Assembly: GCA_902624785.1 (NCBI GenBank)
Contig: CACNYU010000012.1
Span: 1-32,613, forward strand
Reading direction: 5' to 3'
DNA length: 32,613 bases
Source of the DNA: an uncultured Prochlorococcus sp.
Lineage (GTDB): Bacteria > Cyanobacteriota > Cyanobacteriia > PCC-6307 > Cyanobiaceae
In this document: positions 263 to 30,477 of the stretch, in pieces
Numbering within the stretch: position 1 is the first letter of the stretch
Layout of the letters: the number at the start of each line of letters is the position of its first letter
Notes under the pieces: model-generated
What the model was told of the DNA's origin: nothing
The model's input: only the letters and a program-made list of their open reading frames with translations
Databases searched by the model: none
Position numbers and translations under genes: made by a program

Positions 263-363
263 ATAAAAAAAAGACCTCTATTTCTAGAGGTCTTTTGTAA
301 GGTCTTATTGAATCAAGTGTATCCTTGTTTCCACTGATTCAGTAAAACCACTCCTACACACAT
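263..363 (-). ncRNA. yfr2-like: Yfr2-family small RNA, copy 1
   Basis: Read on the minus strand, the RNA begins GTGTGTAGGAGTGG near 361. It forms a hairpin of about 18 bp (GGTTTTACTGAATCA-GTG with CACTTGATTCAATAAGACC) and ends at a strong intrinsic terminator. The apical loop carries GGAAACAAGGATACA, matching the repeated GGAAACA loop typical of the cyanobacterial Yfr2-5 (Cyano-1) RNAs. A near-palindrome lies about 68 nt upstream of the 5' end. A Yfr1-like RNA is encoded just upstream on the same strand, so the two form a tandem cassette. The family call rests on motif and structure; the exact 5' end is inferred. Confidence 0.75.
269..296 (-). terminator. Intrinsic terminator of Yfr2-like copy 1
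   Basis: A perfect 12-bp stem (AAAAGACCTCTA with TAGAGGTCTTTT) closes a 4-nt loop. On the minus strand the stem's own T-run continues into more T residues. It is the 3' end of the minus-strand Yfr2-like RNA. Confidence 0.85.
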
Positions 364-422
364 GTATAAGTTATGCCACATATTCTTTTTCTGTGGAAGG
401 GGGCAATGGAATGTAACTTAAC

Positions 423-436
423 TGTCACATGTGCCA
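423..436. promoter_or_regulatory. Operator-like near-palindrome upstream of Yfr2-like copy 1
   Basis: TGTCACATGTGCCA differs at one base from the perfect palindrome TGTCACATGTGACA found at 30317-30330 upstream of another Yfr2-like RNA. Its centre lies about 74.5 nt upstream of the A of AGGAG in this RNA, against about 73.5 nt in the other. Conserved sequence and spacing suggest a transcription-factor site. The factor is unknown. Confidence 0.5.
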
Positions 437-447
437 TTTATTTAAAA

Positions 448-585
448 AGTCATTAAAAAACACCCTAATCTTTTGAATCGGGGCGTTTAGTGATCAGAAA
501 TTAGTGTGTGAGGAGTTTTCTGATGTATCTAATCTAATCCTAAAATTATTAAATTACTGCAGTATTAATAACTAATTAATCTTTT
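448..585. repeat. Inverted repeat with 2820-2956, left copy
   Basis: The reverse complement of this 138-bp block matches 2820-2956 almost perfectly, with only a few substitutions or indels. The block includes the complete Yfr1-like RNA and about 60 bp upstream of it, containing a TACTGCAGTA palindrome. The intervening DNA is about 2.2 kb. The high identity in such AT-rich DNA points to recent duplication or gene conversion. Confidence 0.85.
453..527 (-). ncRNA. yfr1-like: Yfr1-like small RNA, copy 1
   Basis: On the minus strand an 8-bp stem (ATCAGAAA with TTTCTGAT, 493-524) presents a 16-nt loop holding ACTCCTCACAC, the near-invariant core of cyanobacterial Yfr1. A second hairpin follows (ACGCCCC...GGGTGT, 460-486) and then a T-run, which is a proper intrinsic terminator. 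Yfr1 is known to act by pairing its unpaired core with leader regions of porin-type mRNAs. That role here is inferred from the motif. Canonical Yfr1 keeps the core between two hairpins rather than in a loop, so this may be a divergent paralogue. Confidence 0.7.
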
Positions 586-2770: not shown

Positions 2771-2819
2771 ATGGTCTAGTTTTATTAGTCCAGTATTCTT
2801 TCATATCCTGTCAATCTTA

Positions 2820-2956
2820 AAAAGATTAATTAGTAATTAATACTGCAGTAATTTAATAATTTTAGGATTAGATTAGATACATAAGAAAACTCCTCACACA
2901 CTAATTTCTGATCACTAAACGCCCCGATTCAAAAGATTAGGGTGTTTTTAATGACT
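2820..2956. repeat. Inverted repeat with 448-585, right copy
   Basis: This is the right arm of the inverted duplication carrying the second Yfr1-like RNA. The match continues with lower identity into the Yfr2-like RNA downstream (3045-3140), so the whole two-RNA cassette was copied. Confidence 0.85.
2880..2950 (+). ncRNA. yfr1-like: Yfr1-like small RNA, copy 2
   Basis: The ACTCCTCACACAC core and the terminator hairpin (ACGCCCC...GGGTGT, 2919-2945, then TTTTT) are identical to copy 1. The stem under the core is weaker because the upstream bases read ATAAGAAA instead of ATCAGAAA, leaving about 5 bp. The core would therefore be more exposed, nearer to canonical Yfr1 where it is unpaired. The upstream 60 bp, presumably the promoter, is conserved with copy 1. 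Confidence 0.65.
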
Positions 2957-3044
2957 TGAATTTTATAAGTGTTACTCATTTGTGCTAATTTAATCATCTC
3001 ACATCTAATATTCCCTCAAAAAAAGAATTCCATTAATATCGATT

Positions 3045-3140
3045 TGTGTGTAGAAGAGGTTTTACTAAAACAGTGGAACCAATGAAACACTTGATTCAGT
3101 AGAACCAGAAAAAGACTTTTAGAAATAGGGCCCTTTTTTA
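3045..3140 (+). ncRNA. Degenerate Yfr2-like RNA, copy 2
   Basis: The segment starts TGTGTGTAGAAGAGG and keeps most of the long stem (GGTTTTACT...AGTAGAACC). The loop has changed to GGAACCAATGAAACA, the AGGAG block reads AGAAG, and the terminator stem is damaged (AGACTTTTAGAAATAGGGCCCT) although a T-run remains. It sits about 95 nt downstream of Yfr1-like copy 2, matching the layout of cassette 1. It is probably a decaying paralogue, possibly still transcribed from the TAATAT box near 3034. Confidence 0.5.
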
Positions 3141-11460: not shown

Positions 11461-13371
11461 ATGGGAAATTTTTTAAAAATAAAAAACAAAAAAATTGCTA
11501 TATTTATATTTTTAATTTTGAATCAATTTATTGCCAATGGGTATGCTTTAAATTTTTGGAAAAACAATATTGGTTATTCAAAAGGAAATGATCTTCCAAA
11601 GAGTAATAATAAAAATTTTAAGAACTTACTTGTTGAAAAAGTAAAGAGTAAAAATTCTATTATTTCTAAAGAAATTGAAGATCTAGAGAAATTTGTTGAA
11701 GAAACTTTCGATTCAAATAATTTTGATAATATTGTGGAGAAAACAGAGCAATTTTCTGAAATAAAAAATAATTCTGATTTATTAAAAAATGATATCAAAT
11801 TTAAGAAAACGCAAAAAAAAGGGGAAAATTTTAATGGGAAAGCAAAAAAAATAATAGAAGAAAGAGTTTTGACCAATATTAAACAAAATAATAAAAATGA
11901 GTTACCTTTGCCCTCTCGCAGTATTATCACAAGTAGTCAATTTAAAGTTCCATCAAGGGGATATGTAGAATTAAATGGACCTAATATTACGTTAAATCTT
12001 CAATCAACAGATTCTATTGAAACGTTAAAATTAATTGGTAAATTGGGTAACTATGGAATAGTTATTATTGATGATGATAATTCAGAAATTGAAGAAAGTT
12101 CAAGTAAAAATAAAATTAGTGCGATTTTTAACGATGTAGATATTTCAGATGCGTTTAATAGTATTTTGCTTTCTGCAAATTTACAAGCAGTCTTAGAGAA
12201 AAATATAATCTTTGTTGGTAGAAATATTTTAACAAGGAGTTTAAATTCCACAGTCTCTAAAACGTATAGGCTTAATCAAGTAAATGCTGCCTCAGTTGCA
12301 GATTACTTGTCTACACTTGGAGCTCAAATTTCAAAGGTAATGCTAATAAGTGGTTCAATTGATGGGACTGAAGTGGGAGATAGCTTTGTAAATAAAAAAG
12401 AAATTAATAATAAAGCTATAAATTCATACGGAATAATTGGAGGGCCCTTAAATGGATTAATCGGAACAGCAGATTTAAGATTGCAAACTATAACTTTAAT
12501 AGGTTCTAAAGATCTTATCTCAACTGCAGAAAAATATTTAAAATCACTTGATGTAAGGCATAGGCAAGTGGCATTAACTATAAAAATAATAGATGTCTCA
12601 TTAACAAAATCCGACATAAAAAATAATGTATTTGAATTTAGGACGGGTGATTCAAGATTTATAAATAATAGCGGCTTAGGTTTAGTAACAGGTAATAGGG
12701 AACCAAATAATCTTGCAGGAAGTGCTAATGTTCCAAATATCATTACTGGAGGTTTGGCTGAGGGAAAGTTTTTAAATTGGTTAGAGACAAAAATTATGAA
12801 TGAAAATGCAAAAATCTTAGCTTCCCCTACTTTGATTCTTGGAGAGAATCCTAATGTATTATCTTCTGGCGCTGCTTCAGTTAGTGAGGGATTAAGTTCG
12901 GCATCAATTGGTAGGCCTTATAAAAATGAAGGTTTTATAAAAGTTGGTGAAACTGTGGTTACTGGATTTACTCAAACAGCTGATGAAGGAGTAGTTACAT
13001 GTACGGCTGAAGAGGGAACTGCAGGAATTACATTTGGAGCAAAAGTTGATAAGATTGATGATAATGGTTTTGTTACTTTTGCCTTGAGTCCTGCAATATC
13101 TTCGGTTACAAGATCAGTCGAAATCTCAGGCTGCGGCATACAAAATACTTTAAGTGTAAGGAAATTAGACACAGGTTCTATAAGAGTCAAAAATGGAGAT
13201 ACATTAATTCTTACAGGCGTTCTTCAAGATTCTGATACTGTAACAACCTCAAAAGTTCCTGTTTTAGGTGATATACCTCTATTAGGAAGCTTATTTAGAA
13301 ATAATTCAACGCAGAAAAGAAAAAGTGAGTTAATTATTTTAGTTACACCAAGAATCCTTAAAGATGAATGA
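11461..13371 (+). CDS. pilQ: Type IV pilus secretin PilQ (GspD family)
   Basis: This 636-residue protein should form the outer-membrane pore through which pili pass. Residues 1-29 are a signal peptide ending in GYA. Residues 30-165 are a low-complexity charged linker. An N0/STN-like segment follows at about 168-255 (VELNGPNITLNLQSTDSIET), then an N-domain at about 265-365 (TYRLNQVNAASVADYL) and the secretin core at about 440-634. The core carries AKILASPTLILGENP, the signature VPVLGDIPLLGSLFR (599-613) and ELIILVTPRIL near the end. An insertion with two Cys (514, 559) lies within the core. No AMIN domains are apparent, making it shorter than proteobacterial PilQ. It leads PilN and PilO in the same operon. 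Confidence 0.92.
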   Translation: MGNFLKIKNKKIAIFIFLILNQFIANGYALNFWKNNIGYSKGNDLPKSNNKNFKNLLVEKVKSKNSIISKEIEDLEKFVEETFDSNNFDNIVEKTEQFSEIKNNSDLLKNDIKFKKTQKKGENFNGKAKKIIEERVLTNIKQNNKNELPLPSRSIITSSQFKVPSRGYVELNGPNITLNLQSTDSIETLKLIGKLGNYGIVIIDDDNSEIEESSSKNKISAIFNDVDISDAFNSILLSANLQAVLEKNIIFVGRNILTRSLNSTVSKTYRLNQVNAASVADYLSTLGAQISKVMLISGSIDGTEVGDSFVNKKEINNKAINSYGIIGGPLNGLIGTADLRLQTITLIGSKDLISTAEKYLKSLDVRHRQVALTIKIIDVSLTKSDIKNNVFEFRTGDSRFINNSGLGLVTGNREPNNLAGSANVPNIITGGLAEGKFLNWLETKIMNENAKILASPTLILGENPNVLSSGAASVSEGLSSASIGRPYKNEGFIKVGETVVTGFTQTADEGVVTCTAEEGTAGITFGAKVDKIDDNGFVTFALSPAISSVTRSVEISGCGIQNTLSVRKLDTGSIRVKNGDTLILTGVLQDSDTVTTSKVPVLGDIPLLGSLFRNNSTQKRKSELIILVTPRILKDE

Positions 13372-13396
13372 ACTTAATAATAAACTAAATATTTAA

Positions 13397-14086
13397 ATGG
13401 TTAAAAATAATTTTAAACAAATTGATTTACTTAGAAAGAGGAGGAAAACTAGTAAACTAATTGATCCATATTTTGTAGATACCAAAAAATATATAAAGAA
13501 TGGAGTTTTTTCTGGATTTATTTTAATAGTAATTTCTTTAATTCTTGGTATCCCCTTTATCTTTAGAACTAAAATTTTAGAAAATAAAAAAGATAATATA
13601 AAACTCTTTAGCGATCAATATGATTTACTTGAAAATAAATTAGATAAAGAATCGATACAACTTAAAGAAATTTCTAAATTTAATAATGAACTTAAAAATT
13701 CAATTATGGATATCAGTTCAAGTTCTGCTCTACTGAAGGAAATAAGTTTAATTATTCCAAAAGATATTCAACTTTTAGAGCTTTCATCTAGGGATGATTT
13801 TCTAATTATGAAAGCAAAATTATCAAATGATGAATACTTGAAAACCTTAAACTCTTTTCTATTGAATTTAGATAAATCAGAGTTGATTAAATTTGAAGAG
13901 ATTGATCTTAAAGAGGTAAGTGTATCGCAGAGAAATCTTGAACAAAAAAGTTATTTAATAGATATCAGTACAAAAGTTTCAAAAAATTATAGATATATTA
14001 ATGAGAAATATTTAATCCAACTTGGTTCATATGGATTATCTAATAGATTAAATCTTCTTAAAAATATCAAGGATACCTCTAACTGA
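13397..14086 (+). CDS. pilN: Pilus alignment-complex protein PilN-like
   Basis: The 229-residue protein has a short cytoplasmic N-terminus containing QIDLLRKRRK, which matches the INLLP-type motif by which PilN binds PilM. One transmembrane helix follows at about residues 34-54 (GVFSGFILIVISLILGIPFI), then a coiled-coil region (ENKKDNIKLFSDQYDLLENK) and a periplasmic alpha/beta domain (ALLKEISLIIPKDIQLLELS). This is the PilN layout. It starts 25 nt after pilQ and ends 8 nt before the PilO-like gene. Known PilN forms a heterodimer with PilO linking PilM to PilP and PilQ. Sequence divergence is high, so the call relies on topology and position. Confidence 0.8.
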   Translation: MVKNNFKQIDLLRKRRKTSKLIDPYFVDTKKYIKNGVFSGFILIVISLILGIPFIFRTKILENKKDNIKLFSDQYDLLENKLDKESIQLKEISKFNNELKNSIMDISSSSALLKEISLIIPKDIQLLELSSRDDFLIMKAKLSNDEYLKTLNSFLLNLDKSELIKFEEIDLKEVSVSQRNLEQKSYLIDISTKVSKNYRYINEKYLIQLGSYGLSNRLNLLKNIKDTSN

Positions 14087-14094
14087 CTAATTAT

Positions 14095-14772
14095 ATGATT
14101 AACATAAATAATAAAACTAAAAACTTAATAACTCCTGAAAAAGCTGCTACTTTTATACCAGTTTTTATATCTTCTGGAATTTCTATCCTAATAATTATTT
14201 TTTTTGTAATTCCCCAATACTTTAAATCAGCTGAGGTTAATTCTGAATTAAATAGTTTAATTCAAAAAAAGAATGAATTAAATAATTTAAAATCTCAATA
14301 TAAAATAATTAATAGAAAATTTGATATGTTAAAAAAGGAAAAATTACAAATAATAGAGTTAATTACAGGGACATCAAATCTAGATACTTTATTAGCTGAA
14401 TTAGGAAAGATAGGCAAGAAAAATAATATCGAATTTTTATCTATAGTTCCTAAAGAAGTAGTTGCTGCAGATAAAAATAATAATAAAAAGAATGTGAATA
14501 AGAAAGTTAATCAAGATGATTTAATAAATGATCCTTTATTAGTTGAAGGTATAAAAAAATATTTAATTGATTTCACTTTTAATACAGATTTTGTTAATTT
14601 ACTTTCTTTTTTAAGAGACATTGAATTGCAGGATAATGTAATATTATTAACTGACATTAATTTAAGTTCAAATAGTCAAGATAATGATAATAAAGATATT
14701 GATAATCAATCCCGAAAGATGCTAGAAATCAATATGAGTATTACATTTTATGGCAAAAATCAATTAAGATAA
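14095..14772 (+). CDS. pilO: Pilus alignment-complex protein PilO-like
   Basis: The 225-residue protein has a cytoplasmic N-terminus, one membrane helix at about residues 22-41 (FIPVFISSGISILIIIFFVI), a long coiled coil (ELNSLIQKKNELNNLKSQYK), and a periplasmic domain with the PilO pattern TLLAELGKIGKKNNIEFLSI followed by IDFTFNTDFVNLLSFLRDIE. A Lys/Asn-rich insert (residues about 125-145) splits the domain. It follows the PilN-like gene at 8 nt and should partner with it as part of the inner-membrane alignment complex. Confidence 0.82.
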   Translation: MININNKTKNLITPEKAATFIPVFISSGISILIIIFFVIPQYFKSAEVNSELNSLIQKKNELNNLKSQYKIINRKFDMLKKEKLQIIELITGTSNLDTLLAELGKIGKKNNIEFLSIVPKEVVAADKNNNKKNVNKKVNQDDLINDPLLVEGIKKYLIDFTFNTDFVNLLSFLRDIELQDNVILLTDINLSSNSQDNDNKDIDNQSRKMLEINMSITFYGKNQLR

Positions 14773-14800
14773 TCAAATAAGTTAATTCCTCTAATTTATT

Positions 14801-15232
14801 ATGAATTTTTTATATATAGTTCTGGGTTTAGCAATGATGTCTGGTATCTCTGCAATGATGAAAATAGGAAATAATGTTAATAATTTAATGCTTTTAAGTA
14901 CTTTTAAAGAAAATGATTATTTCAAATCATCTTTACCTAGCTATGACAGAAGAATTATGGCTATTTTGGATAAATATTCAGGGCCAGCTAACAATGTTTG
15001 TTCCCATATCAAGGGAGAATTAGCAAATGATTTATATGAAGATGGAGAAATTTACTTTGCTACAGGGACACAGACACCTTCTTTACATTCTTTATTTATG
15101 GGTAGCTGTGTTTTAGTAAATAAGGATTTAAATCATAGAGTAATAGTAAATAAAAATAGTCTAGGTACTTTTAATTTATTTTCATGCTTTTTGAAAGATG
15201 AAACTTTCTGCCCATACGAGGAAAATAAATGA
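14801..15232 (+). CDS. Hypothetical pilus-locus membrane protein
   Basis: This 143-residue protein begins with a hydrophobic helix (residues 2-22, NFLYIVLGLAMMSGISAMM) and continues as a soluble domain with five Cys. Its pattern (a hydrophobic N-terminal helix and a small Cys-containing domain, in a run with a minor prepilin) resembles pseudopilins, but there is no Gly-Phe/Met cleavage site, so it is probably an anchored accessory protein. Its stop overlaps the start of the next gene by 4 bases (ATGA), indicating translational coupling. The family is not recognised. Confidence 0.7.
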   Translation: MNFLYIVLGLAMMSGISAMMKIGNNVNNLMLLSTFKENDYFKSSLPSYDRRIMAILDKYSGPANNVCSHIKGELANDLYEDGEIYFATGTQTPSLHSLFMGSCVLVNKDLNHRVIVNKNSLGTFNLFSCFLKDETFCPYEENK

Positions 15233-15438
15233 TTTCTTCATTGATTGGTTCTGTAATAATGTCTGCAGTAACAATAGCGATGCTTATTGCTATAAACTAT
15301 ACAGATAAAGCATTAACTAAGGTTGGAAGATATCCTCTTACAAGTCAGGAAAGGCAAATATTAAAAAATGCAGGTTTTAATTCAGTGGATGTTGAAAATA
15401 TTAATCAAGAAATTAAATCATTAAACTTTTATAAATAG
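15229..15438 (+). CDS. Small membrane protein of the pilus locus
   Basis: The 69-residue protein has one membrane helix at residues 2-22 (ISSLIGSVIMSAVTIAMLIA) and a short polar tail, SQERQILKNAGFNSVDVENI, predicted as a helix-turn-helix-like pair of helices. The start overlaps the previous gene by 4 bases and the next gene begins 3 bases downstream, so it is firmly inside the operon. The N-terminal helix resembles that of pilin-like proteins without a leader. The function is unknown; a membrane partner for the minor pilins is a guess. Confidence 0.65.
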   Translation: MISSLIGSVIMSAVTIAMLIAINYTDKALTKVGRYPLTSQERQILKNAGFNSVDVENINQEIKSLNFYK

Positions 15439-15441
15439 CCT

Positions 15442-15966
15442 ATGAAACATAAAAAACTAAATAGTGAAGGTATGACTCTTCCGGAAGTAGTTTTAGCATT
15501 TTTAATGTTAACTGCTTTTACAGGCATAACAGTCATGGTTACTGCATATACTTCAAGATTTTTTCAACCTCTAAATGAAGAAGCTAAAGAAGAATATATT
15601 AAATCTGAAAAAGAATTAAGTGATAAACTTAATGACAATGCTCGAATAAATAAATCTTTTGATTCGATTATCGAAATTTTCTCTGAGCCAGGTATTAATA
15701 AAAGTTTTATAACTAATTTAAAGTGTACTTCTTTACCATCAATAGAATGGAATATTCCATCAATTGATGCTGAAGCAATACCAAGATCATATAAAATATG
15801 TGTAAAACCAACTTCTCTAGCTGAGAGTAATTACTACGAATTAGCAAATGCTCAAGGAAAACCTGGAATTTATATTCTCTATTCCAAGCCAGAGAATGGG
15901 GTATCAGTTAATTCAACTCCTATAAGGAGGATATTTTGCAGACCAAAGCCTTTTTGTAAATTATGA
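15442..15966 (+). CDS. Minor type IV prepilin
   Basis: The 174-residue protein has a prepilin leader of ten residues ending NSEG, then MTLPEVVLAFLMLTAFTG: cleavage after Gly10, Met at +1 and the conserved Glu at +5 (Glu15), followed by the hydrophobic N-terminal helix. The remainder is a globular domain with several Cys and a basic C-terminus RRIFCRPKPFCKL. Such minor pilins prime or tip the fibre. Met at +1 instead of Phe is tolerated by many prepilin peptidases. It overlaps pilM by 4 bases (ATGA). PilD at 23780 would be the processing enzyme. Confidence 0.85.
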   Translation: MKHKKLNSEGMTLPEVVLAFLMLTAFTGITVMVTAYTSRFFQPLNEEAKEEYIKSEKELSDKLNDNARINKSFDSIIEIFSEPGINKSFITNLKCTSLPSIEWNIPSIDAEAIPRSYKICVKPTSLAESNYYELANAQGKPGIYILYSKPENGVSVNSTPIRRIFCRPKPFCKL

Positions 15967-17555
15967 ACTCAGCGAAAACCTCAAAAAAGAAGCTCAGCGA
16001 ATATCAAGTTGAAGATTTAAAGGAAATCTTTTTAGATGTTGTAAAAAAAATAAGTAGCAAGATTATTTTGCTCGAAATAGGAAATGACTTCATAAATGTA
16101 GGTCTTGCAAAGTCTCAAAAAAATAAACTTTTCATAAAAAAAATTTTTAGGCAATCTCTGCCTGAGGAAGCTTTAGATAAGTCAATACCATCTGATCCAA
16201 TAAGTTTTGGTTTATTCTTAAAACAAATTATTAATGAAAATAATTTTCATACTAAAAGGGTGGCAGTAGTTCTTTCATCAGATGCTTGTTATACAAGATT
16301 AATTGAGATTCCTGAAGATGTTGAGGAAAAAAATTCTATTAACTTTCTTGAAAATCCTAATTCGGGAATTCAAATACCAATTTCTTTAGAAAACTCTGAT
16401 TTTGAAATTCATCTAACTAATCTTCCTAAAAAAGAACATAATAATAAAATTTTTAATAAATATTTTTTAACATCAATACCCAAAAAAAATGTAGACATAG
16501 TTCTTGAATCAATTAATAATGCAAATCTAGAATTATGCTCTATTCAGATGAGTCATATGTGCATTGCTAATTTATTGAAATCAGAAATAAATAAATTAAA
16601 TCAAGATCAACTGATAATTTCAATAGATTTATTGGATGAATTTACTCAATTTGTGATTTTTGATAGAACAGGTCCTTTATTAATTAAAAGATTAGCTTCT
16701 ATTAGAAATTATCCCTCAATAGATGAGATGAAGAAAATTAATATTTTAAATAATGATAAGAGTAAGAATTCTAAAATTAAGAGTACTTCAGAAAACTATC
16801 ATGAGTTATCAAAACTTGATGTAAAAGTGTTATTGAGAGAAATAAAACAAGCATTTAATCACTTTTTAAATGATAATAATTTAGAAAAAAAAGGAAAAAT
16901 ATTTTTATCTGGAAGAAATAGTCAACATAATAATCTTGTTGATTTAATTGGTGGAAATTTAGAGATGGATGTTGCTCTAATTTCTCCCATAAGAAATGAT
17001 TTACTTAAAGAATTTTCATATGATCCCGATCAAATCAACCAATTTTCAATGTCAAGAATTGTTGGTTTAGGTTTAACTTTAATAAAAGATAATACCTTTA
17101 TAGATCATTCCTCAAATAAGGAATTTATAATTAAATATTTCTCTTCTAAAGACTTGAACAAAGATGATAACAATAAAAATATGAAAAATATTGAAAACAA
17201 TAAAAATAATAAAGTAAATAAGATAACTGATTCAATGAATTCTGTGAATCAATTTAATAAGGAAAATCTAAACATAAAAGATAAAGCAGATACAAAAACA
17301 AAAAAAGAGGAAACTAAAAAAGACCTACCACCATTACCAAATCTAAACATAAAAGATAAAGCAAATACAAAAACAAAAAAAGAGGAAACTAAAAAAGACC
17401 TACCACCATTACCAAATCAAAAAAATAATAAAAATCAAAATAATATCAAGAAACCATTTAAACAAAGAGATAAAGTAAATATACAAAAAGATAAAGTTGA
17501 AAGTAAAAAAAATAAATCTTTTAAAATGGATACATCATTTTTGAAAGATGGTTAA
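15963..17555 (+). CDS. pilM: PilM-like pilus assembly ATPase with long charged tail
   Basis: Residues about 30-375 have the PilM/actin-like pattern: IILLEIGNDFINVGLAKSQK at the start, then FGLFLKQIINENNFHTKRVA and VVLSSDACYTRLIEIPEDV, LIISIDLLDEFTQFVIFDR in the middle and GKIFLSGRNSQHNNLVDLIG near the end. PilM is a cytoplasmic ring protein that binds the PilN N-terminus. The C-terminal 150 residues are an Asn/Lys-rich disordered tail holding a 25-residue unit repeated twice (LPPLP ends each unit). This tail is unusual; PilM is normally about 350 residues. It is last in its operon, rather than first as in pilMNOPQ, and converges on pilC with overlapping stop codons. Confidence 0.8.
   Translation: MNSAKTSKKKLSEYQVEDLKEIFLDVVKKISSKIILLEIGNDFINVGLAKSQKNKLFIKKIFRQSLPEEALDKSIPSDPISFGLFLKQIINENNFHTKRVAVVLSSDACYTRLIEIPEDVEEKNSINFLENPNSGIQIPISLENSDFEIHLTNLPKKEHNNKIFNKYFLTSIPKKNVDIVLESINNANLELCSIQMSHMCIANLLKSEINKLNQDQLIISIDLLDEFTQFVIFDRTGPLLIKRLASIRNYPSIDEMKKINILNNDKSKNSKIKSTSENYHELSKLDVKVLLREIKQAFNHFLNDNNLEKKGKIFLSGRNSQHNNLVDLIGGNLEMDVALISPIRNDLLKEFSYDPDQINQFSMSRIVGLGLTLIKDNTFIDHSSNKEFIIKYFSSKDLNKDDNNKNMKNIENNKNNKVNKITDSMNSVNQFNKENLNIKDKADTKTKKEETKKDLPPLPNLNIKDKANTKTKKEETKKDLPPLPNQKNNKNQNNIKKPFKQRDKVNIQKDKVESKKNKSFKMDTSFLKDG
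17265..17414 (+). repeat. 75-bp tandem repeat, two units, in pilM
   Basis: Units 17265-17339 and 17340-17414 differ at a single base (GCAGAT against GCAAAT, Asp to Asn). Each encodes 25 residues, NLNIKDKA(D/N)TKTKKEET followed by KKDLPPLP. Near-identity shows a recent in-frame duplication, so the copy number may vary among strains. Confidence 0.95.
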
Positions 17556-18715
17556 CCCATTTCATTTATTAGACTAAACATTGGTAAATAAAGTGATATG
17601 ACAATAGTACCTACAATTGCTGCAACAACAAAAATAACGGCAGGCTCCATTGCTTTTGTAAGGACGGTTACTGCTTCTTCAACTTCTCTTTTATAGAAGT
17701 TTGCAAGATTTTCTAACATAAAAGAAAGAGCTCCGGTTTCTTCACCTATCTTTATCATTGATATTAATAATCGAGGTATAACTTTTGCTGATTCTAGTGA
17801 TGTACTTAATTCTTGTCCTTGTGTTACTAGAGAGATTGACCTTCTCAATGCAATCTTTATAATTTCGTTGCTAGATGCGTTTATACACCTCTCAATAGCT
17901 TCAACAATAGAAATACCTGAATTTATTAAAGTGCTTAATGTATCAGACATTGAAGCTAGTTCAGATTTTAAAATTAAATCTCCAAACAGAGGAATTTTTA
18001 AAATAAAATTATCAATAATTTTTCTACCAGTTGGAGTTGAATATGTAATATTAAAAAAATATAAGCCAATAAATACAGAAATTGGAGCAATAACGACAAA
18101 ACCTAATGATGTCACTATTCTTGATAAAACTAACATAAATGATGTCAAAGCTGGTAATTCAGCTCCCATGCTTTTAAACATGTCATCAAATGTTGGGACT
18201 ATAAAAATTAAAAGGGCGAGGCTTATAGTTACTGCTAATACAAGAATTGCAATTGGATAAATTAATGCTCCTTTTATTTGTCCTTTTATTTTACTCTGAG
18301 ATTCAACTAAAGAAGCTAATCTCTCTAAAACTTGAGATAATATTCCACCTGCTTCACCCGCCTCAATCAGGCCAATCATTATAGGGGTAAATATTCTAGG
18401 GTAGTTTCCCAGGCTTGATGACAATTCTTCTCCACTTCCAAGCCTTTTGGATACATCAAGTATATTGGCCCCAAACTTTTTGTTAGTCATGTTTTCGGCT
18501 AATAATTCTAGTGCCTGAGAAAGGGGAACTCCACTTTTCAACATTACTGACATTTGCCGAAAGAAAACTAGCAAATCATTTTGAGGAACTTTTAATTTTG
18601 AATTAGGTTCATAATCTAAATGTGATTCTTCTCCAAATACGATACCAAAAACAACTAATGGAGGTTGTCTAGATACCCTTTTTTTTATTAAATTGGAACT
18701 ACCATATTCAACCAT
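17552..18715 (-). CDS. pilC: Type IV pilus inner-membrane platform protein PilC
   Basis: The 387-residue protein of the GspF/PilC family has two T2SSF domains. The first (about residues 45-170) includes FFRQMSVMLKSGVPLSQALE and IEAGEAGGILSQVLERLA; the second (about 245-375) includes LSTLINSGISIVEAIE and IKIGEETGALSFMLENLA. Transmembrane helices lie at about 148-170, 195-220 and 360-380. It forms the rotor-like platform acted on by PilB and PilT. It follows pilT by 2 bases in the pilB-pilT-pilC order common in cyanobacteria. The N-terminal 40 residues are slightly shorter than in many homologues. Confidence 0.93.
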   Translation of the reverse strand: MVEYGSSNLIKKRVSRQPPLVVFGIVFGEESHLDYEPNSKLKVPQNDLLVFFRQMSVMLKSGVPLSQALELLAENMTNKKFGANILDVSKRLGSGEELSSSLGNYPRIFTPIMIGLIEAGEAGGILSQVLERLASLVESQSKIKGQIKGALIYPIAILVLAVTISLALLIFIVPTFDDMFKSMGAELPALTSFMLVLSRIVTSLGFVVIAPISVFIGLYFFNITYSTPTGRKIIDNFILKIPLFGDLILKSELASMSDTLSTLINSGISIVEAIERCINASSNEIIKIALRRSISLVTQGQELSTSLESAKVIPRLLISMIKIGEETGALSFMLENLANFYKREVEEAVTVLTKAMEPAVIFVVAAIVGTIVISLYLPMFSLINEMG

Positions 18716-18717
18716 TT

Positions 18718-19761
18718 TTATAATTTTATTGCTTTTGGATTTGAGGCTTTCCCTAATGCCTCCTCTTTAGTAATTAGACCATCTGCATAAAGATTATTTA
18801 AACATTGTTCAAGTGTATTCATTCCATATTGGCTGCCAGTCTGTAATTGCGAATAAATTTCACTAATTTTTTTTTCTCTAATTAAATTTCCAATCGCAGT
18901 TGTATTAATCATTAATTCATAAGCAAGAGATCTTTTGCCTTTTGTGTTTTTGCATAAAGTTTGAGACATAATACCAGCTAAAGATGTAGATACTTGAAGT
19001 CTCGCTTGCTCTTGTTGATCAGCAGGAAAAACATCAACGATTCTTTCGACGGTTTTTGCTGCAGATGAAGTATGCAAAGTCCCCAATACAAGATGTCCAG
19101 TTTCTGCTGCCGTGATAGCGAGTTGAATAGTTTCTAAATCTCTCATTTCCCCAATATATATAATATCTGGATCTTCTCTTAAAGCTGCTCTTAGAGCAAT
19201 CGAAAATGAATTTGTATCTCTTTTAACTTCTCTTTGATGAATAATTGAATTCTGAGTATGTTTAAAAATAAATTCTATTGGATCTTCAATAGTTAATATG
19301 TGCCTTTGCTGCGTTTCTAAAATGCAATTGATAAATGCAGCTAAGGTTGTTGATTTCCCAGAACCAGTTGGCCCAGTACATAAAACTAAACCTCTATGAA
19401 GTTTTGATAATTCTATAAACGCATTGGGCAACCCTAGATCTTGCCATTTAGGAAGATCATTTGGAAGAAGTCTGAGGGTAAGGCATCTTTTTTCATTCGC
19501 TATATATGCGTTAATTCTTAATCTAGATAATCCTTCCAATCCTATGGAACTATCTAAATCTCCAGTTTGATTATATTCATTAAGTTTTTCTTCACCTAGT
19601 AATTCTAGTAACAATTGATCCATATCATCTGATTCCAATTTTTGGGGACTCACTTTGATCTCTGAGTTTACCCTCACGGCAATTGGGGATTCTTCTTCAA
19701 GATGAATATCCGAGGATCCAGCCTCTATTGCGAAACCTACTATCTCTCTTGCTATTGACAT
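18718..19761 (-). CDS. pilT: Twitching-motility retraction ATPase PilT
   Basis: The 347-residue secretion ATPase has Walker A GPTGSGKSTT (130-139), the Asp-box ILTIEDPIEFIF, Walker B DIIYIGEMRD (199-208) and the His-box TGHLVLGTLHT (221-231). The C-terminal AIGNLIREKK corresponds to the AIRNLIRE motif that is characteristic of PilT and needed for retraction, with Gly in place of the first Arg. There are no zinc-binding Cys pairs, unlike PilB. It powers pilus retraction at the cytoplasmic face of PilC. The gene follows pilB by 10 bases and precedes pilC by 2. Confidence 0.92.
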   Translation of the reverse strand: MSIAREIVGFAIEAGSSDIHLEEESPIAVRVNSEIKVSPQKLESDDMDQLLLELLGEEKLNEYNQTGDLDSSIGLEGLSRLRINAYIANEKRCLTLRLLPNDLPKWQDLGLPNAFIELSKLHRGLVLCTGPTGSGKSTTLAAFINCILETQQRHILTIEDPIEFIFKHTQNSIIHQREVKRDTNSFSIALRAALREDPDIIYIGEMRDLETIQLAITAAETGHLVLGTLHTSSAAKTVERIVDVFPADQQEQARLQVSTSLAGIMSQTLCKNTKGKRSLAYELMINTTAIGNLIREKKISEIYSQLQTGSQYGMNTLEQCLNNLYADGLITKEEALGKASNPKAIKL

Positions 19762-19771
19762 GTTCTTTAAA

Positions 19772-21424
19772 TTAGTCTGATTTGCATACTCTGATGACTT
19801 CAGAAATTGTTGTTAGATGATCTTTAACCAACTCTACACTGTATTGTGTAAGTGTGAGCATTGAATTTTCATTTACAGCTAGATTCTCAATTTCTCTATC
19901 AGTTAAACCATTTGAGATCCCAGCCTGAATCTTCCTATCAAGGAGAAGAAGTTCATATGCTCCTACTCTTCCTTTATAGCCTGAACCTTGGCATTTTTGA
20001 CAAAGAGTATTTTCTCTTTTTCTACTTAATTTTTCCTCAGCTGATAGGGAATTAGCGTACATTATTGGGGTATTCTTTTTAATGTTGAATTCAATGGCTT
20101 CACTATCAGAAACTGGCCTTTTAATTCCGCATCCCGTACATACTTTTCTAAGTAACCTTTGTGCTAGTATTCCTCTTACACTTGCATTTAGTTTATATTT
20201 TGGGACTTCCATATCCAATAACCTTGTTAAGGAACTACATGATGAATTGGCATGAAGGGTAGTAAAAACTAAGTGTCCTGTTTCAGCTGCATCCATTGAG
20301 GACTCTGCTGTTTCAGGATCTCTTGTCTCACCAATGAGTATCACATCAGGATCTTGCCTAAGAAAAGTTCTCAAGATATTAGCAAATGTCTGTCCTTTGG
20401 CTCTATTTACTTGAACTTGGTTAATATCACCACCCATATCATATTCAATAGGATCTTCAGCAGTTACTATATTTGTGTCTCCAGTATCTTTTTCTCTTAA
20501 TGCAGCAGCTAGAGTAGTTGATTTGCCTGATCCTGTTGGCCCAGAAACAATTACGATGCCATTAGTAGAGCTCATTATTTTTCTAAAATTTTTTCTTACA
20601 CTTTCAATATGAATTAAAGTGTCTAAATTTAAAGCAGATGCATCACTATTTAAGATTCTAAGAACCATTTTTTCACCATGCTTCCCTGGAACTGTTGAAC
20701 AACGAAATTCAAGTCTATTACCCTCAAATTTTCTTAAAATTTTCCCATCTTGACTAGCCCTTCTTTCAGCAATATCCATTGAAGCCATGTTTTTTAAGCA
20801 TGCCACTAATTGGATTCCTGGTTTTCTTGACATGGACATAAACTTCTGCATTACTCCATCTTTCCTAACTCTTATTTTGTAACCTTCTTCTCTAGGTTCA
20901 ATATGAATATCAGATACATCATTTTTTCGAGAATTTATTAGTACCATTCCTGCTGCTTTTTGGATTTTGCTTTCCATCATTTCAATAGCCAGATCTAAAC
21001 TATCCTCTTCAACATTTTCTTCGCTATCATCATCGAACTCAAATGAAAAATTATCATCTTCATTGTCAGAAGTTTCTTTAATAGCTTCTAATACAGCATC
21101 CTCATCAAATTGAGATAATTCTATTGATTCTCCTTTTATAAACCTTTCTTCAGAAGCTAAATCTAGAATTTCTTGAATTTCTTCTTGAGATCTTTCAACA
21201 AATTCACATTTAAAACCGGATTGACTCAGCCTTTCTTTTATAGGAGAAGCAATAGTCCCTAAATATGAGTAATTTGCTATGGCTATCTTTATAATTCCTT
21301 CCTTCATAGGTAAGGATGTTTCTTCATACAGAGGAACTACAAAATTATCTCTGCACCACTGAAGGGAGAAAAACCTATCTACTAATTTTCTTACACTTGT
21401 AGGTGTGTATCTAATTTCAGACAT
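19772..21424 (-). CDS. pilB: Pilus extension ATPase PilB (GspE family)
   Basis: The 550-residue protein has an N-terminal GspE/PilB-type region (residues 1-90), an acidic linker at about 108-145, then the ATPase core: SDIHIEPREEGYKIRVRKDG (171-190), Walker A GPTGSGKSTT (295-304), NIVTAEDPIEY, Walker B VILIGETRD (361-369), the His-box TGHLVFTTLHA (382-392) and tetracysteine zinc site CTGC (429, 432) plus CQKC (475, 478). It drives pilus polymerisation. Its start codon directly follows the stop of the large prepilin gene with no spacer, suggesting coupled translation. An acidic linker this strong (EFDDDSEENVEEDSLD) is notable. Confidence 0.95.
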   Translation of the reverse strand: MSEIRYTPTSVRKLVDRFFSLQWCRDNFVVPLYEETSLPMKEGIIKIAIANYSYLGTIASPIKERLSQSGFKCEFVERSQEEIQEILDLASEERFIKGESIELSQFDEDAVLEAIKETSDNEDDNFSFEFDDDSEENVEEDSLDLAIEMMESKIQKAAGMVLINSRKNDVSDIHIEPREEGYKIRVRKDGVMQKFMSMSRKPGIQLVACLKNMASMDIAERRASQDGKILRKFEGNRLEFRCSTVPGKHGEKMVLRILNSDASALNLDTLIHIESVRKNFRKIMSSTNGIVIVSGPTGSGKSTTLAAALREKDTGDTNIVTAEDPIEYDMGGDINQVQVNRAKGQTFANILRTFLRQDPDVILIGETRDPETAESSMDAAETGHLVFTTLHANSSCSSLTRLLDMEVPKYKLNASVRGILAQRLLRKVCTGCGIKRPVSDSEAIEFNIKKNTPIMYANSLSAEEKLSRKRENTLCQKCQGSGYKGRVGAYELLLLDRKIQAGISNGLTDREIENLAVNENSMLTLTQYSVELVKDHLTTISEVIRVCKSD

Positions 21425-24601: not shown

Positions 24602-25141
24602 TCAATATTTTCATCTTCTAATGTAACCAATTAATTATTAAGAAATATTTTTTATTTACTATCTAAGATATAACGATACTATTGATCAATTAACAATTGA
24701 TTTTTAAAATAATGATTGATCTTTAATATTAAATTTATGCGACTAATATGCATTATTTAGTAAAAGAGTTTATTTATAAGTAGCAATTTTCACCTACAAA
24801 AAATAAAAAATAACTCAAATTTTAGAGGTCTTTTTTTATTTTGCTTCATCAAGTGTATCCTTTTTTCCACTTTTTTTAGTAAAGTCATTCCTATAATACA
24901 GATTTAATATCACACAATAATTTTTATAGGCAAGCCAATTATTTCAAGAATTAAAATTGTAATATTGGAAACTTTTTGAAAACTAATTTATTTTCTAAAA
25001 AGTCTTAATTAGTAATAAATAATGTATGAATAATTGTTTTTTTGATACTATTTTATAATTTGAAATATTTATAAATTACTGAAATATTAACTATAAATAA
25101 TACTTTTGTAAGAAATTATTAATCTATATAATGTATAACTG
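24602..25141. other. Intergenic with a degenerate small-RNA copy
   Basis: No open frame of note. The middle holds the Yfr2-like remnant annotated separately. The rest is AT-rich DNA with several TATAAT-like strings; no specific promoter is claimed for the nuclease gene that follows. Confidence 0.5.
24818..24897 (-). ncRNA. Degenerate Yfr2-like RNA, copy 3
   Basis: On the minus strand GACTTTACTAAAAAAAGTGG, then AAAAAAGGATACACTTGATG, aligns with the loop and stem of copy 1 (GTGGAAACAAGGATACACTTGA). The 5' GTGTGTAGGAG has become TATTATAGGAA, and the terminator stem keeps only one arm (AAAGACCTCTAAAATTTGAG). It is most likely a dead copy marking an earlier duplication. Confidence 0.45.
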
Positions 25142-30330: not shown

Positions 30331-30390
30331 GTTGAAATAGGTAAACATTAATTATTCGCAATAACAAATTTATTAGGTTAGGATAATTTT

Positions 30391-30477
30391 GTGTGTAGGA
30401 GAAAATTAACATTTTAGTGGAAACAAGGAAACACTTAAAATGTTAACTTTACAGAGACCCTTTAAGGGTCTTTTTTT
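30391..30477 (+). ncRNA. yfr2-like: Yfr2-family small RNA, intact copy
   Basis: The RNA begins GTGTGTAGGAGAAAATT just after a GATAAT box (30382-30387). A 14-bp stem (TTAACATTTTA-GTG with CACTTAAAATGTTAA, one bulged T) carries a loop with GGAAACAAGGAAACA, the two GGAAACA units expected of Yfr2-5 RNAs. A terminator follows at once. This is the least degenerate copy in the window. Homologues are abundant trans-acting or regulatory RNAs in marine picocyanobacteria; their role is not fully settled. Confidence 0.85.

Follow-up and report, generated by a model that had tools for sequence, protein, structure and literature searches.

Yfr10-Yfr2 small RNA cassettes in an uncultured Prochlorococcus genome, and the predicted pairing of the Yfr2 5' end with the Yfr10 loop

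Small RNA genes of the window

The DNA analysed here (the window, 32,613 nucleotides from an uncultured Prochlorococcus sp.) carries small RNA genes of two Rfam families, Yfr10 (RF02362, gathering cut-off 43 bits) and Yfr2 (RF01701, gathering cut-off 41 bits; Cyano-1 is taken as the Rfam name of this family). Copies A and B of Yfr10 and copies A, B and C of Yfr2 all score above these cut-offs. Yfr10 copy A (445-524, minus strand; cmscan 73.4 bits) is laid out as a hairpin with the motif in a 16-nt loop, followed by a second hairpin and then U. The motif, ACUCCUCACACAC, was read directly at 504-516 on the minus strand and is unpaired in the predicted fold. This RNA had been called Yfr1-like in the initial annotation, a name that holds in so far as it bears the Yfr1/Yfr10 motif, but Yfr10 is the more precise assignment because of the RF02362 match at these positions. 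The covariance-model search found no RF01116 (Yfr1) match in the window, and the Yfr1 match of the same genome lies on a separate contig (C14:1639-1691).

Directly downstream lies Yfr2 copy A (296-363, minus; 63.9 bits), whose 5' end carries the antisense arm GUGUGUAGGAG (351-361, minus; direct reading). A terminator hairpin with the arms AAAAGACCTCTA and TAGAGGTCTTTT is predicted at 265-296 (ends approximate). By homology to four mapped MED4 5' ends, the RNA should begin at 361 and extend through this terminator. A Phe_leader candidate at 265-364 (33.1 bits) fell below its gathering cut-off of 55 and was rejected.

The second cassette is encoded on the opposite strand, so that the two diverge as an inverted pair, with about 2.2 kb between them. 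It consists of Yfr10 copy B (2881-2959, plus; 61.2 bits), with an intact motif at 2889-2901, and Yfr2 copy B (3044-3111, plus; 50.4 bits), whose loop is altered and whose arm reads GUGUGUAGAAG. This arm occupies 3046-3056, one base away from the position 3045 at which the AGAAG copy was originally placed. With the AGAAG arm, the changed loop and a weaker predicted fold (-17.6, versus -35.0 for copy A), Yfr2 copy B is apparently decaying. In both cassettes the Yfr1 motif sits in a hairpin loop of a gene directly upstream of Yfr2, as is characteristic of Yfr10, and the spacing from the Yfr10 match to the Yfr2 match is 82 and 85 nt. A small ORF between the two cassettes (1881-2117, minus) has a T5orf172/MUG113 domain, which we take to be possibly related to GIY-YIG nucleases.

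Two further Yfr2 loci occur outside the cassettes. Copy C (30389-30455, plus; 62.4 bits) is a solo gene, upstream of which a Yfr10 motif was looked for and none found; its arm, GUGUGUAGGAG, is intact at 30391-30401. Remnant D (24818-24899, minus, ends approximate) was recognised as a fuzzy core match. It is degenerate, has lost the arm and gives no Rfam match at E<=1, and it keeps a recognisable loop, GTGGAAAAAAGGATACACT, at 24852-24870. Genes of the type IV pilus type (secretin, PilM, T2SSE ATPase) are located between the Yfr2 copies, at 11461-21424.

Elsewhere in the same genome, Yfr10-like matches were observed on contig C2, over the cut-off, and on contig C1, below it. Both are stand-alone hairpins: L006 (G000:C2:45397-45479; 50.5 bits), near which no Yfr2 core was found, and L007 (G000:C1:57916-57997; 36.2 bits), which contains the motif and has an opposite-strand glutamine-II riboswitch about 100 nt away.

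The two cassettes of the window differ sharply in how alike their parts are. A 137-nt inverted repeat, 97% complementary between 456-592 and 2813-2949, comprises in each arm most of Yfr10 (copy A and copy B, respectively) together with the upstream region, whereas similarity between the Yfr2 parts is 81%. Part by part, the identities between cassettes A and B are 60/61 upstream, 76/80 in Yfr10, 42/84 in the spacer and 60/73 in Yfr2. The upstream region is the most informative of these parts, its best match elsewhere being 52/61 (L085). Yfr10 copy A is as close to L084 and L036 (77/80) as it is to copy B, and the spacer and Yfr2 of cassette A are closest to L084 (71/82 and 71/73). The Yfr2 of copy B matches L068, L070, L072 and L081 at 66/73 each and MED4 Yfr4 (L069) at 65/73, and by sequence thus appears slightly nearer to these than to copy A (60/73), although the difference is small. 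Ten multi-cassette genomes were chosen for comparison, one of which gave no pair; in the 39 cassette pairs of the other nine, upstream identity reached at most 82% and the upstream region was never the most alike part.

Cassette B (2813-3113) therefore looks chimeric, with a near-identical inverted Yfr10 and upstream region placed on a decayed Yfr2. On the simplest reading, the Yfr10 half was brought onto a Yfr2 that is older and separate, by gene conversion or as a recent inverted copy; the literature searched contained nothing on Yfr10 together with gene conversion. Amplification chimeras also give inverted copies. An artefact of this kind is unlikely here because the arms of the repeat are 97%, not 100%, alike. 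Near both cassettes there is, in addition, a direct repeat (137-217 and 2718-2798; 81 nt, 75% alike), while the cassettes themselves are inverted.

Pairing of the Yfr2 5' end with the Yfr10 loop

The 5' ends of Yfr2, Yfr3, Yfr4 and Yfr5 of MED4 are given in Table 2 of PMC1242208 (Axmann 2005). They were read here in survey genome G015, taken as MED4 because its Yfr10 match (346661-346738) has the coordinates given for that strain in Table 1 of PMC2518516. All four mapped starts begin GTGTGTAGGAG, with +1 at the first G of the antisense 11-mer. The initial annotation had made its proposal depend on this segment not lying upstream of the mapped start, and in MED4 the segment begins at +1 itself, inside the RNA. 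By homology to these four starts, the arm is expected at +1 in the window genome as well. According to the legend of Figure 5 in PMC1242208, Yfr2-5 have their own initiation sites. An upstream box of loose definition, TG[GA][CGA]AT, is present in cassette A, absent from cassette B and found in 62/148 cases overall; no conclusion was based on it.

Re-reading of the sequences at 351-361 and 504-516 on the minus strand bore out the proposed complementarity of the Yfr2 5' end and the Yfr10 loop. The arrangement described for it (six base pairs, a bulged C, then six more) can be drawn for copy A, but the twelfth pair, between Yfr2 U12 and Yfr10 A1, is incidental, being available in 32/107 cassettes.

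Raw duplex energies did not separate this pairing from chance: in an RNAduplex control that ignores accessibility, 1088 of 2000 shuffles reached the real energy, a control in which we take the A/T-rich terminators to dominate. For this reason an accessibility-aware scan was adopted, covering all 12x12-nt windows of both RNAs with opening costs included. Its optimum joins nt 9-20 of Yfr10 to nt 1-12 of Yfr2, the same segments as those originally proposed, at -14.7 kcal/mol for copy A. None of 400 dinucleotide shuffles was as low (shuffle mean -4.4, best -10.5), which confirms, within the energy model, that the pairing exceeds chance. In Yfr2 copies A and C the 5' arm is predicted to be partly buried by folding, at opening costs of 1.7 and 3.0 kcal/mol.

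In the same scan, copy C interacts with the Yfr10 loop at -12.8 kcal/mol, in keeping with its description as an intact copy. The two copies described as eroded had both been thought to lose the pairing, which is so for remnant D (-3.2 kcal/mol); in copy B, by contrast, the interaction is weakened (-8.7 kcal/mol), with 10 of the 11 pairs still possible. If the window genes behave like their relatives, active sponging would be expected of copies A and C, weak sponging of B and none of D.

This pairing is already known, contrary to the initial annotation, with a prediction dating from 2008 and an experimental demonstration from 2019: PMC2518516 (Steglich et al. 2008) prints the same pairing, bulged C included, and PMC6778093 (Lambrecht et al. 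2019) reports binding, derepression and target competition. In the latter work, Yfr2 pulled down Yfr1 and Yfr10 in MED4, a PMM1121 reporter repressed by Yfr1 was restored by Yfr2 in E. coli, and small amounts of Yfr2 inhibited the binding of Yfr1 and Yfr10 to ppa mRNA. These reported results agree with the suggestion that Yfr2 sponges, or mimics the targets of, the RNA bearing the Yfr1 motif. Yfr1 and Yfr10 were further reported to protect Yfr2 from RNase E, the cleavage being blocked by pairing in vitro (PMC6778093). As regards the putative role of the arm as a Shine-Dalgarno decoy, the same paper states that Shine-Dalgarno sequences in MED4 are no commoner than chance. Two of the assays that had been proposed are likewise in print, in that PMC6974561 (Brenes-Alvarez et al. 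2020) reports the gel shift for Yfr1 and Yfr2 of Nostoc and the MED4 pull-down is akin to ligation sequencing.

A chance match between two RNAs rich in A/T or in repeats would suit the RNAduplex control. Set against it are the accessibility-aware scan, the conservation of the arm in 106 cassettes of the genus (see below), its recognisable presence in 66 Yfr2 copies outside the genus, and the published experiments. Conservation and experiments already refute this explanation, and its probability is close to nil.

The cassettes of MED4 described in PMC2518516 and PMC6778093 (Yfr10-Yfr2, Yfr18-Yfr5 and Yfr12-Yfr4) resemble those of the window in families, order, strand and motif, in the GUGUGUAGGAG 5' end and in the pairing published in 2008. 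For high-light strains, PMC6778093 reports a location of Yfr10 upstream of Yfr2. Unlike these neighbours in MED4, the two cassettes of the window genome form a divergent inverted pair, and in cassette B a near-identical Yfr10 and upstream region is joined to a decayed Yfr2. The Yfr1-Yfr2 system reported for Nostoc sp. PCC 7120 is similar in that a region of Yfr2 is partly complementary to Yfr1, for which sequestration has been proposed (PMC6974561).

Conservation and coupling of the two arms across the genus

The genus of the window genome, to which MED4 also belongs, was surveyed in 121 genomes for matches at E<=0.001, with RF02362 searched in the window's own genome and in the genus. Yfr10 matches were found in 96 of the 121 genomes and Yfr2 matches in 103; among genomes at least 90% complete, the count was 39/41 for each family. 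At least 126 of the 151 Yfr10 matches (150 listed in the genus plus one from the window genome) are followed on the same strand, at 60-91 nt, by a Yfr2 match, the spacing falling into two groups of 60-70 and 81-91 nt. One half-complete genome, G031, has six Yfr10 and six Yfr2 matches (L009, L070, L071, L077, L120 and L148), including two cassettes in opposite orientation on one contig, about 1.6 kb apart.

For analysis of the arms, 129 distinct Yfr2-like sites (loci L001-L166) were reduced to 106 cassettes, which are related sequences representing 34 distinct arm pairs. First removed were seven false core matches that lacked an arm, 12 sites with no Yfr10 motif (up to four mismatches) upstream and one with the wrong spacing, and then two with indels (L020, L146) and one false site (the second of L023). 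Three of the 12 (L143, L151 and L153) sit at listed Yfr10 matches, with a motif too changed or misplaced for the search, and the sample therefore leans towards conserved motifs. Three retained cassettes (L161, L162 and L166) have no listed Rfam Yfr10 match and may contain chance motifs. Within this sample, with its lean towards conserved motifs, positions 1-5 and 7-11 of the Yfr2 arm are each conserved in at least 104/106 cassettes and positions 2-11 of the Yfr10 motif in at least 96/106.

The initial annotation had named a lack of compensatory conservation in homologous pairs as refuting its proposal, and on this point the outcome is mixed: both arms are conserved, but no compensatory coupling between neighbours was found. 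In the 106 cassettes no cis covariation was detected, a Yfr2 arm forming on average 10.443 of 11 pairs with its own partner versus 10.428 after shuffling (1004 of 5000 shuffles as high). At the level of sequence there is accordingly no sign that each Yfr10 tracks its own Yfr2 neighbour, which agrees with a shared pool acting in trans. The apparently chimeric cassette, too, suggests that the two halves, Yfr10 and Yfr2, can evolve independently of each other within a single genome, in line with such a shared pool rather than private pairs.

Two further patterns were rejected as evidence of pairing. Yfr10 A8 is relaxed where nt 6 of Yfr2 is not U (4/31 versus 0/75; Fisher p 0.006), but since positions 2, 5, 12 and 13 are also relaxed in the same cassettes (p 0.008 or less), this was attributed to a general decay in cassettes of that class. 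Of 40 changes in the Yfr10 arm, counted in 25 haplotypes, 23 keep a wobble pair (20 C>T and three A>G), which carries no weight as evidence unless set against a neutral spectrum.

Given the lack of neighbour coupling, conservation alone is no proof that Yfr10 and Yfr2 select each other, and each arm might instead be maintained by its own mRNA targets, the mutual complementarity of the two being largely a by-product of facing the same kind of sequence. Yfr1, Yfr2 and Yfr10 are each reported to have many mRNA targets, with 302 mRNAs enriched for Yfr2, 206 for Yfr1 and 253 for Yfr10 in MED4 (PMC6778093). This explanation is rather unlikely in view of the reported MED4 pull-down, reporter and competition experiments (PMC6778093) and the Nostoc gel shift (PMC6974561), and because the arm forms the very 5' end of the RNA and the two genes are adjacent in at least 126/151 cases.

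The conserved tandem order and the 60-91 nt spacing between matches would also be compatible with pairing inside a Yfr10-Yfr2 co-transcript, where a putative loop-to-tail pseudoknot would control processing of the precursor before any action in trans. Table 1 of PMC2518516 includes a precursor of 270 nt for MED4, and the block to RNase E cleavage of Yfr2 by pairing in vitro (PMC6778093) points the same way. We consider such a role quite improbable, as solo Yfr2 copies keep the arm (copy C in the window, Yfr3 in MED4) and Yfr2-5 are reported to have their own initiation sites (PMC1242208).

The window very probably carries the known Yfr10-Yfr2 cassette, in which the 5' end of Yfr2 binds the motif in trans as a target mimic. 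Under this mechanism, GUGUGUAGGAG at the Yfr2 5' end would bind in trans the motif CUCCUCACAC, which is present in the Yfr10 loop and also in Yfr1. As a target mimic, Yfr2 would titrate the motif RNAs away from mRNAs, and the binding would in turn occupy Yfr2 and shield it from RNase E. The window genome itself presents genes of both families in tandem order, with the arm at the expected +1 and a predicted duplex that is stable and accessible; that these copies are expressed and act as in MED4 is what we infer from that strain. In E. coli, GlmY acts through competition for an adaptor protein and is not known to base-pair with GlmZ. That system, a parallel named in PMC2518516, is alike in that one sRNA modulates another.

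The bulge and nucleotide 6 of the Yfr2 arm

In MED4's genus the Yfr2 arm mostly has the form GUGUG-N-AGGAG, where N (nt 6) is U in 75, A in 28 and C in three of the 106 cassettes. Among the 122 Yfr2-like sites with an arm (L001-L166), 112 read [UAC]AGGAG, two read GAGGAG (L151, L153) and eight are otherwise changed or false. We read L151 and L153 as having N=G, although a reading free of insertion could also be conceived. Outside the genus, 66 Yfr2 copies from 57 genomes were inspected (the 26 best and 40 chosen among the matches listed). The arm was scored as lacking the extra nucleotide in 65 of them, a few with another base changed, and as having it in none; the 66th, L181, is shifted by a contig end and reads GTGTGAGGAG. 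With L181 counted in, all 66 are taken to lack N. The SS120 start of PMC1242208 Table 2, read in G145 (taken as SS120 by its coordinates), begins GTGAGGAG, and the Rfam Cyano-1 consensus is UGUGUGAGGAG. The window arm thus has a nucleotide that the other genera sampled lack (Nostoc being represented here by PMC6974561 alone).

Because N alone varies within the genus and the other sampled genera are without it, the bulge is ascribed to Yfr2: with moderate confidence, and from sequence comparison, MED4's genus probably has one nucleotide inserted in the Yfr2 arm. No mention of an insertion was found in those parts of the literature on the Yfr1-Yfr2 bulge that were available here, and further papers could have one.

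Such an insertion would bear on the register of the duplex. In the register of 2008, U6 pairs with A8, a pair that fails in 30/106 cassettes. If nt 6 is bulged instead, GUGUG pairs with CACAC (Yfr10 7-11) and AGGAG with CUCCU, giving 10 pairs, and this register is complete in 88/106 cassettes (16/34 arm pairs). The 11-pair register of 2008 is complete in 63/106 (4/34), or in 82/106 (13/34) if the U6 pair is spared. For the window's own arm the register energies are nearly equal (C bulge -16.4, nt-6 bulge -15.8), while in the A6 class the better value belongs to the nt-6 bulge (-15.8 versus -13.7 for the C bulge). The modelled preference is not clean, since the nt-6 bulge has one pair fewer and the energies of the window's own arm are almost equal.

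Without opening costs, the natural duplexes of window copies A and C have energies of -16.4 to -17.7 kcal/mol, as compared with -17.1 and -16.4 kcal/mol for unbroken duplexes in two genera of the same family (G160, G174) and -20.1 to -22.1 kcal/mol in four distant genera. By these calculated values the insertion does not clearly weaken the duplex relative to near relatives, and leaves it below the four distant genera. The idea that the bulge turns a near-irreversible sponge into a reversible one was dropped, the unbroken pairs of the two genera of that family being no stronger than those of the genus. Taken as a whole, the odds are about even that the bulge is a derived nt-6 insertion typical of MED4's genus, with a working register that omits N rather than the Yfr10 C and a sponge that is reshaped, though not clearly weakened relative to near relatives.

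These results independently confirm, from raw sequence, a published sRNA-sRNA circuit of Prochlorococcus, to which the apparently chimeric cassette and the probable nt-6 insertion are small additions. The latter would mean that the geometry of the duplex differs between MED4's genus and the other genera sampled, a modest but testable addition.
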